NCBI RefSeq assembly: GCF_001426885.1
Contig: NZ_LMFP01000011.1
Coordinates: 95,017 to 159,016 of the forward strand
Length of the DNA stretch: 64,000 nucleotides
Direction: 5' to 3'
DNA from: Pelomonas sp. Root1444
Lineage (GTDB): Bacteria > Pseudomonadota > Gammaproteobacteria > Burkholderiales > Burkholderiaceae_C
Shown here: in pieces, positions 47,706 through 50,819 of the stretch
How the letters are laid out: each line of letters opens with the position of its first letter
Numbering within the stretch: the stretch's first letter is position 1
Made by a program: the position numbers and the translations under genes
The notes under the pieces: model-generated
Told to the model about the DNA's origin: nothing
The model's input: the letters and a program-made list of their open reading frames with translations, nothing else
Databases searched by the model: none

Positions 47706-50700
47706 TTAGGTGCCGCCCTGGCGGCGGCCGCGGCGCTGCTGGCGCGCGGCCTGCAGCAACGCATCGCGCACGTCGGCCAGCGGCGACTGGGCCCGCCCGC
47801 TGGCAATCGCCTGGGCCGAGCGCGCCAGGGCTTCGATGTCCTCGGTGCCCAGGTTCAGCGTCGTCCACACGATGACGGGCAGCGCCGCCCAACGCGGGTC
47901 GCTGCGCAGCGCATGCAGCACCTGCAAGCCGTCGACGCCGGGCATCACCAGGCCCAGCACGATGGCCGCGGGCTGCAACGTGGGCAGCACCTGCAGGGCT
48001 TCGGCGCCGCCGGCCGCCGCGACGGCCTCGATGCCGCTGGCGGCCAGGGCCGAGCACATCAGCTCGCGCGCCTGCGCTTCGTCGTCGACCACCAGCACCG
48101 GCCGCCCGGGCCCGAAGCGCTCGCGCAGCGGCACCAGGGCGCGTGCCAGCGCCGCGCGGCGCAACGGCTTGGCGAGCACGTCGGCCACCGCGAACGCGAC
48201 GCTGTCGCCCGTGGCCGGCGTCAGCGCCAAGGCCTTGACGGCGGCGTGCATGGACGGCCCGCCGCTGCGCAGCGCCGCCAGCAGGGACAGGCCCGGCGCA
48301 TCGGGCAGGCCGAGGTCCAGCGCCAGCTCGGTGTAGCGGCGCAGGCGCGCCAGGCGCAGCCCCTCGGCGACAGTGGCTGCGGCGTCGGCGCTGACGCCGG
48401 CCTGCGACAGCTCGCGGGCCACGCCGTCGCGCAACGGATGGTCGCGCAGCACCACGAGCTGGTGCCGAACCGGGTGCGGCGCCTCGGCATCCGCGTGTTC
48501 GGGCTGGCGCGGCAGCACGGCGTAGAAGCGGCTGCCGTGGCCAACCTCGCTGTAGACGCCGACCCGGCCGCCCTGTGCCTCGACCAGCCGGCGCGTCAAT
48601 GCCAGGCCCAGGCCCGTGCCCGGGTGGCGCTTGGCCAGGCCGTCATCGAGCTGCTGGAACTCGACGAACAGGTGGCCCAGGCGGTCGGCCGGGATGCCGA
48701 TGCCGCTGTCCTCGACCTCCAGCCGCCACAACCGCGGGCCTTCGCCGCGCATGCGCAGCTCGACCCGCCCGCCGGCGGGCGTGAACTTGATGGCGTTGGA
48801 CAGGTAGTTCAGCAGCACCTGCTTGAGCCGCGCCGGGTCCAGCACCAGGCCGCGCAGCCCGGGCGCGATGTCGGCCTTGAGGCTCAAGCCCCCCTGCTCG
48901 GCCAGCACGGCAACGGTGGCCATCACATCGCCGACCACGGCCGGCAGATCCACCGCCTCGGCGTGGAAATCCATCTTGCGGGCCTCGATCTTGGAGAGGT
49001 CCAGCACGTCGTTGATCAGGCTCAGCAGCTGCCGGCCGCTGCTGCCGATGTGCTGCAGCCATTCGCGCTGCCGCTGCGGATCGAGCGGCTGCTTGCTCAT
49101 GCTGAGCAGATCGGCGAAGCCGATGACGGCGTTCAGCGGCGTGCGCAGCTCGTGCGACATGTTGGCCAGGAACAGGCTCTTGAGCCGGCTGCCCTCCTGC
49201 ACGCGGCGGTTCTCGGCGGCCAGCCAGACGGACTGCTGGCGCGCCTGCTCGGCGGTGCGCATGGCGGTGACGTCGGCGACGATGCCGACCAGGCGCGCCG
49301 CGCCAGCGTCGTCGCGCGTGACGCGCGCATCCATGCGCAGCCAGTGCACGCTGGCATCGGGCCAGGTGACGCGGAACTCGGCATGCCAGGGCAGCTGGCC
49401 CTGCGCGGGGCCCTGCAAGGCGTCGAGCCCGGCCGCGACCATCGCGCGGTCTTCGGCATGCACCGCGGCCAGCATGCGCGCGCCGTCCCAGCCGCCGATG
49501 CCGTCGGGCAGCCCGAAGCATTGGTCATAACGGCGTGAACGGTGGATGCGGCCGCCCTCCAGCTCCATCTCCCAGTCGCCGATGGCGGCGGACTCCAGCG
49601 CGAAGCGCAGCCGCGCCTCGCTCTGGCGCAGGGCGGCCTCGATCTGGCGTTGGTGGGTCAGGTCACGCACCGAGCTGACACCGCCGACGATGCGGCCCGC
49701 CGCGTCGCGCAGCGGCGAGACCTGCGCCGAGACCTCAATGCGCCGGCCGTCCCTGGCCAGGCGCACCGTGCGCAGCGGCGGCAGTTGCTGGCCTTGCGCC
49801 AGGCTGGCAAGCACGTGCGTCTCCTCGGCCTCGCGCTCGGGCGGGACCAGCATCGTCACCGGCTGGCCGACCGCCTCCGCGGCGCTGTAGCCGAACATCT
49901 TCTCGGCGGCCGCGTTCCAGTTGGTGATGCGGCCGTCCAGCGTCTTCACGAGGATGGCATCGGCCGAGGACTCGACGACGGCGGCCAGCCGGCGCACCTC
50001 CGCCTCGGCGTCGGTGAGCCGGCCGATGTCGCGGAAGACCAGCGCGACACCGCGCTCGCGGCCGTCGGCATGGTGGGTCAGGCTGGCATGGACCTCGATG
50101 GGCCGGTGGCTGCCGTCGCGCGCAATGCAGACGGCCTGGCCGCGATAGCCGCCGTCGCGCACCACGGCGATGGGGTCGTGCGGCGCCGGGCCCGCCGGCG
50201 CGCCCTCGCGCACGAAGACCTCGCCGACCGGGCGACCCAGCGCCTCGGTGGCAGGCCAGCCGGTGATGCGCTCGGCCACCGCGTTCATGCGCGTGACGCG
50301 GCCTTCGCCGTCGGTCGCGATGAAGCCGGCGTCGATGGCCGACAGCGTCGCCGCCAGGCCCTGCGCCGTTTCGAGCAGGTCGTCCTCGGCGCTGTGGCGG
50401 CGGTCCATCTCGCGGCGCAGCGCCTCGTTGGCGGCGCGCATCTCGTCCACCGACGGCACGGCCAGCAGGCGGGGCATCAGCCGCCACGCGACGGCCGCCG
50501 TCAGCACCGAGGCGCAGGCGGTGAAAAACTTGCCGGCCGTCTGCAACTCGTAGTCGGGCCGCCAGATCGTCCAGACGTCCAGCACGTGCGTGATGCCGCA
50601 GGCGAAGATGAAGACGGCGAACAGCGTGGCCAGGCTGCCGAGGTTGACCTGCGGACGCTGGCGCGCATAGCGCGCGATGACCAACGGGATCGAGAAGTAG

Positions 50701-50819
50701 GCCAGCGCGATGGCGAGGTCGGAGCCCACCATGGTCCACAGCAGACCGGGTGACCACTGGAAGCAATAGCCGTGCGGCAGGAACCCCGCCCGCGCGACGA
50801 TCCCGGTCAGCTCGTCCAT
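47706..50819 (-). CDS. Hybrid histidine kinase with ethylene-receptor-like (ETR1-type) membrane sensor domain
   Basis: A 1037-residue kinase. The N-terminus (about 1-115) has three hydrophobic helices matching the plant ETR1 ethylene-binding domain: [19 protein letters not shown] and [19 protein letters not shown]. Residues D34, Y41, I44, P45, I71, C74 and H78 correspond to ETR1 D25, Y32, I35, P36, I62, C65 and H69 at identical spacing; C65/H69 bind the copper cofactor. Three PAS domains (about 150-530) follow, then HisKA with H556 ([15 protein letters not shown]), HATPase_c ([27 protein letters not shown]) and two receivers. The first receiver keeps Asp (LALDLGLPD) and Lys (LAKPL); the second has Gly in place of the phosphoacceptor (IVLGLVMPG). 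Ligand identity is inferred. Confidence 0.88.

Follow-up and report, generated by a model that had tools for sequence, protein, structure and literature searches.

Does Pelomonas sp. Root1444 carry a receptor for ethylene? This question is raised by one gene in a 64,000-nucleotide stretch of its DNA (the window); the Pelomonas "Root" strains are, we assume, isolates from Arabidopsis roots. The gene lies on the minus strand at positions 47706 to 50819, where an unbroken frame runs from an ATG at 50819 to a stop that ends at 47706 and encodes 1,037 amino acids. The reading frame and a Pfam scan gave a hybrid histidine kinase with the domain order EBD-PAS-PAS-PAS-HisKA-HATPase-REC-REC, all features being on the minus strand. 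The ETR1_N ethylene-binding-type membrane domain (EBD; residues 26 to 121, positions 50457 to 50744) is followed by a first PAS region at about residues 151 to 272 (50004 to 50369; Pfam and alignment, borders set by eye), a second PAS at residues 277 to 386 (49662 to 49991; PF00989), and a third, PAS_3, at residues 448 to 513 (49281 to 49478; PF08447). The idea that the second PAS might be a heme-PAS was considered and set aside. HisKA spans residues 547 to 613 (48981 to 49181; PF00512), and HATPase_c spans residues 661 to 772 (48504 to 48839; PF02518). The H box, MSHELRT, is intact and holds the predicted phospho-accepting His556.

An earlier note on this DNA had described the protein as PAS-PAS-PAS-HK-REC-REC. 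The kinase architecture stands, but the second receiver of this strain lacks its phospho-acceptor Asp, so that "REC-REC" does not mean two standard receivers. Pfam found two Response_reg stretches, of which the better scoring is the second receiver (residues 908 to 998, positions 47826 to 48098). Its acidic pair is present; codon 47952 to 47954 is GGC, which places Gly956 where the alignment has the acceptor. The remaining 14 genus rows and all four outgroups have Asp (GAC or GAT) at this position, and Gly is found in this strain alone. A one-base change confined to one strain suggests either a recent loss of the need for REC2 in this strain, which would agree with REC2 being the least constrained region of the protein, or an assembly error. 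The first receiver-like domain (about residues 786 to 895, positions 48135 to 48464; a Response_reg stretch with borders set by eye) has an R-D acidic pair and keeps Asp835, as do all 15 genus rows; among four outgroups, two have Ala and one has Gly.

We asked whether the N terminus belongs to the ETR1 family, as the earlier note had claimed, with a profile search as the check that could overturn it. The Pfam search placed it there and in no competing family: PF25487 (ETR1_N) matched residues 26 to 121 with 111.8 bits against a curated cut-off of 27 (E 1.9e-32), and this is the only ETR1_N match in the strain's own genome. The pocket was aligned with the Arabidopsis ETR1 N-terminal sequence. 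D34, Y41, I44, P45, I71, C74, and H78 (span 50586 to 50720) correspond to ETR1 D25, Y32, I35, P36, I62, C65, and H69 at a constant offset of 9 in 7 of 7 cases, which bears out the complete, identically spaced pocket that had been proposed. The three N-terminal helices that had been noticed were also predicted by AlphaFold, as long helices at residues 24 to 54, 61 to 86, and 90 to 119 (mean pLDDT 84.5, pTM 0.66; the input was a 64-row alignment into which 63 of the 80 named loci went). In the PDB, a search by sequence found nothing up to E 10; a search by fold gave 119 hits within the same limit, none of which reached E 0.001. PMC12643061 assigns the ETR1 copper site to Asp25, Cys65, and His69 by mutagenesis and XAS; these residues correspond to D34, C74, and H78 of the kinase. 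The Cys and His of the pocket are present in 80 of 80 named relatives, a sample partly chosen by patterns containing this Cys, and the pocket letters of these loci differ only at D34 (E, N, or H in 8 rows) and I44 (L or M in 6 rows).

The kinase is, on its sequence, another member of an already-known type, the bacterial ethylene-receptor-like kinases. PMC11819568 demonstrates ethylene binding by AzoEtr1 of Azospirillum brasilense Sp7, states that the protein has the seven residues, and cites earlier work that found putative ethylene receptors in many proteobacteria; the review PMC7700396 likewise describes such genes, with varied outputs, in many proteobacteria and cyanobacteria. The earlier statement that ethylene-binding kinases are known from cyanobacteria is therefore true but too narrow, and the kinase is less novel than it implied. 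Direct ties between ethylene binding and microbial physiology are described for very few microbes, namely, Synechocystis, Rhizophagus, and Azospirillum (PMC11819568). In the A. brasilense Sp7 locus that we retrieved from the plasmid collection (L203), a 525-amino-acid frame equals the published length of AzoEtr1, and downstream of it lies a receiver frame that, read from an internal ATG, has the published 135 amino acids. The AzoEtr1 EBD shares the seven pocket letters and a PHGxCxxW motif, and PAS and histidine kinase domains come after it. However, AzoEtr1 is a 525-amino-acid protein with a single PAS, and its response regulator is encoded by a gene of its own downstream (PMC11819568), whereas the kinase here has three PAS regions and two fused receivers, and no Response_reg match, that is, no separate regulator gene, was found among the 8 neighboring frames scanned. 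An adjoining response regulator gene characterizes the AzoEtr1 arrangement; other members of the family need not have one. SynEtr1 (slr1212) of Synechocystis PCC 6803, likened here by description only, is also a bacterial EBD protein that signals through a histidine kinase and phosphorelay, but it doubles as a light receptor (PMC11819568). A cyanobacterial EBD is described as coupled to a phytochrome domain, whereas the Pfam scan found no phytochrome match in our kinase.

Arabidopsis ETR1 shares the seven binding residues at identical spacing and has a histidine kinase and receiver behind them. Its N terminus, as aligned here, lacks the PHGxCxxW motif. ETR1 is reported to have a GAF domain after the membrane domain and to act on CTR1; the Pfam scan found no GAF domain after the EBD of the kinase here and placed PAS there instead.

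We think it likely that the kinase is a bacterial ethylene receptor, with copper, ethylene binding, dimer signaling, and the phosphate route all inferred. This reading is based on the PF25487 score, the 7 of 7 residues and their match to the reported ETR1 copper site, the alignment with AzoEtr1, the retention of pocket residues in relatives, the low dN/dS of the EBD, and the presence of the H box and ATPase. Against it stand pocket-less orthologs that still exceed the Pfam cut-off, the lack of a neighboring regulator in 8 frames, and the one receiver without an acceptor. In the proposed mechanism, Cu(I) would be held by Cys74, His78, and probably Asp34 of the three-helix N-terminal domain. Ethylene would bind the copper within the membrane and change dimer packing, and the PAS chain would relay this change and alter autophosphorylation at His556. 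Since the second receiver of this strain lacks the acceptor, the phosphate would most likely leave through the first receiver (Asp835) or pass directly to another protein, either a response regulator or an HPt protein. The roles given for AzoEtr1 are biofilm, root colonization, and carbon/nitrogen balance (PMC11819568), and by analogy the kinase may tune central metabolism or life on surfaces. We infer, as the earlier note did, that the organism may sense ethylene, or ethylene from plants. ACC deaminase was considered as a mark of a plant-ethylene lifestyle and rejected: no match exceeded the cut-off in the 20 genus genomes (one weak match fell below it), and the 14 control genomes also had none over the cut-off, so that the search may be of limited sensitivity. 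The genome features that we looked at gave no other pointer to ethylene.

Could the pocket bind Cu(I) and the signal not be ethylene? Periplasmic copper or redox state, or another small Cu(I)-binding molecule (carbon monoxide, acetylene, or other alkenes), might then be sensed, and we consider this unlikely. It would accommodate the predicted copper ligands, the extra His/Cys motif (H16 and C19) that accompanies them outside the classical pocket, and the records of the relatives, among which are methylotrophs and bacteria from groundwater or ponds and not just plant associates. It does not fit well with the conservation of Y41, I44, P45, and I71, which ethylene binding is reported to require in addition to the copper ligands, or with the alignment of the domain with AzoEtr1, a proven ethylene binder.

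A further question is whether bacterial pockets come with a companion element. The extra motif reads P-H-G-Y-C-F-Q-W at residues 15 to 22 (positions 50754 to 50777; locus alignment), immediately ahead of helix 1. H16, G17, C19, and W22 are present in 79 of the 80 named loci, a sample partly chosen by this motif. Because the Pfam match begins at residue 26, behind the motif, loci found by the profile are not selected for it. We aligned 60 such loci (20 from the family, 11 further from the genus, and 29 from the phylum) and dropped L201, leaving 59. Y41, C74, and H78 occur together in 50 of these. All of those 50 have P15, H16, G17, C19, and W22, and none of the other 9 has all five; since the 50 include many close relatives, they do not amount to 50 independent cases. 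P45 is gapped in 2 of the 50 in this alignment. Among the 9 others, L196 and L199 keep C74 and H78 and lack Y41 and P45. The motif is also present in a Nostoc protein. Searching the open-licence literature for the motif strings PHGYC and PHGHC with ethylene returned nothing; other naming or figures would escape such a search, and we do not claim that the motif is unpublished. Tentatively, and with distinctly less confidence than we have in the receptor reading, we suggest that an ethylene receptor in bacteria depends on a second element absent from plants: PHGxCxxW would be indispensable to the copper/ethylene site, acting in copper entry or gating at the outer face and evolving and dying with the pocket, and one Roseateles lineage would have shed motif, pocket, and first PAS while selection for a different input maintained its kinase. 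With the motif, further residues become available for testing; for the domain itself, our searches found no solved structure. Separately, locus L018 (G043) has an in-frame stop at Cys19 and Arg at His78; its draft genome is about 80% complete, and the locus is either a pseudogene or a sequence error.

How widely is the domain spread? Each count including the strain's own genome, ETR1_N exceeded the cut-off in 20 of 299 same-family genomes, 28 of 398 genomes of the phylum sample, and 14 of 20 genus genomes; it did so in none of the 14 control genomes. The weak matches at L021 and L201 were left out of the counts as below the cut-off and cytochrome-oxidase-like; by our reading, they resemble cbb3 oxidase subunits. 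The nearest named relatives are eight Roseateles and Pelomonas records with EBD identities of 85 to 93%, a set from which the strain's own or very near genomes are possibly absent, and the next is a Burkholderiales MAG at 75%; the window thus probably belongs to that genus (Roseateles/Pelomonas). Among the open-licence papers listed for Roseateles and Pelomonas, none mentions "ethylene-binding domain," and the "Root" strain names yielded one paper there, on tetracycline resistance.

The neighborhood bears on the history of the gene. The earlier note had placed it among purine and carbon-metabolism genes, and this holds for its surroundings, all on the minus strand. purC (SAICAR synthetase; 46768 to 47676; PF01259) lies 29 bases downstream of the kinase gene. 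GGACT, for an AIG2-like gamma-glutamyl cyclotransferase (50919 to 51344; PF06094; start approximate), lies 99 bases upstream, and fba, for a class II fructose-bisphosphate aldolase (51353 to 52417; PF01116), follows, so that the gaps along the row fba-GGACT-kinase-purC measure 8, 99, and 29 bases here. A scan of 47400 to 52700 gave 0 promoter-like sites (0.1 in shuffles) and 1 terminator-like site (1.6 in shuffles). Of 15 same-genus stretches, the window included, 12 have the whole row. The incomplete ones are G302, with purC on another contig; G308, where the kinase reaches the contig end, purC again lying on a different contig; and G313, where the contig begins inside the kinase. Neither purC, fba, nor GGACT was found in 8 same-family stretches tested (L024 to L031, of 15 from other genera) or in 18 named loci outside the genus (L048 to L064 and L071, some possibly from the same genomes). 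In the kinase-less genomes G306 and G307, fba, GGACT, and purC are directly adjacent. The kinase site is unreadable in G156 and G314, which have purC and fba on different contigs, and in G309, which gave no purC match. In a tree of purC, fba, and GGACT that has several weak forks, the pocket-bearing G308 is deepest, the kinase-less G156, G306, and G307 lie on separate nested branches, and G314 (no kinase found, 83% complete) falls near the base with weak support. These data fit, and do not prove, an old gene lost several times. Two side observations concern these neighbors. Contig 10 of G313 (L161 and L171) carries a second purC and fba, besides the purC that adjoins the truncated kinase. In the window, 52563 to 53582 on the plus strand adjoins the fba row on the opposite strand and encodes a protein with HATPase_c_2, a STAS-like DUF4325, and a below-cut-off MarR-type match.

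Among the 14 genus genomes with ETR1_N, pocket residues D34, Y41, P45, I71, C74, and H78 are kept in 11, with L in place of I44 in G301 and G308. In the other three, G238, G305, and G312 (L020, L129, and L128), which are same-locus orthologs, the pocket is lost: they have C at 41, Q at 78, and no Cys at 74, although alignment of the decayed part is uncertain. All or most of the PHGxCxxW segment is gone and PAS1 is missing, and from residue 262 on they are 75 to 76% identical to the window protein. They still score over the Pfam cut-off (34.8, 46.5, and 52 bits); a Pfam match alone is therefore no proof of an ethylene pocket. A tree of the kinase part joins the three with the truncated G313 in one clade (support 100/100) among the pocket-bearing proteins. 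Counting labels gives the three losses as 2 changes, because G313, whose EBD is not visible, lies inside the clade. A search of the open-licence literature with terms for loss and copper ligands matched 37 papers, and we do not claim that pocket loss is unpublished.

We then compared selection on the two groups by pairwise Nei-Gojobori dN/dS, in which the pairs share branches and are not independent. Among 11 pocket-intact orthologs (window included; 55 pairs), the medians were 0.17 for the EBD, 0.35 for PAS1, 0.205 for PAS2, 0.227 for PAS3, 0.243 for the kinase core, 0.285 for REC1, and 0.432 for REC2. The EBD thus has the lowest median of the seven regions, and it was below the kinase core in 50 of the 55 pairs. 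Among the pocket-lost orthologs (3 pairs), the EBD median was 0.769 (0.217 to 0.874) and that of the kinase 0.075; the high EBD values come from the two pairs with G305, the closest pair, G238 and G312, giving 0.217. In the 33 mixed pairs, the medians were 0.762 for the EBD and 0.255 for the kinase. Constraint on the EBD is relaxed in the pocket-lost orthologs while the kinase is still constrained, a contrast carried by three pocket-lost species.

These results also bear on whether the kinase is being retired in the genus, its sensor a relict and the protein, if it works, an unregulated or PAS-regulated kinase. The three same-genus species without pocket and PAS1, the two genomes in which fba, GGACT, and purC are adjacent with no kinase between them, and the second receiver of this strain would all be expected from retirement. 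However, the EBD has the lowest median dN/dS among the pocket-intact orthologs, the kinase retains its motifs, and its frame in the window is unbroken, and we regard retirement as improbable, more so than a signal other than ethylene. Within one genus, most sampled species have the complete pocket, some are without the gene, and one lineage has a pocket-less kinase at the same locus. The genus has named isolates and offers natural positive, null, and sensor-dead strains in which to ask what bacterial ethylene perception serves. The value lies in this within-genus contrast and in the companion motif, more than in the single gene.

Finally, that the N terminus is of a different membrane-sensor family and resembles ETR1 by chance, for which we found no support beyond L021 and L201 showing that the profile is drawn weakly to unrelated helices, can be given almost no credence and is refuted as far as sequence allows by the E value, the lack of a competing family, and the seven identically spaced residues. 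Divergent proteins over the ETR1_N cut-off were also observed. L196, L197, L198, L199, and L200 have altered pockets (e.g., Y41 to F, P45 to A, and H78 to R), and they are possibly subfamilies with another ligand. Some genomes have several matches over the cut-off, with three in G574 (one of them short) and two in G461; the second copy in G461 and the short match in G574 were left out of the comparison of pocket letters.
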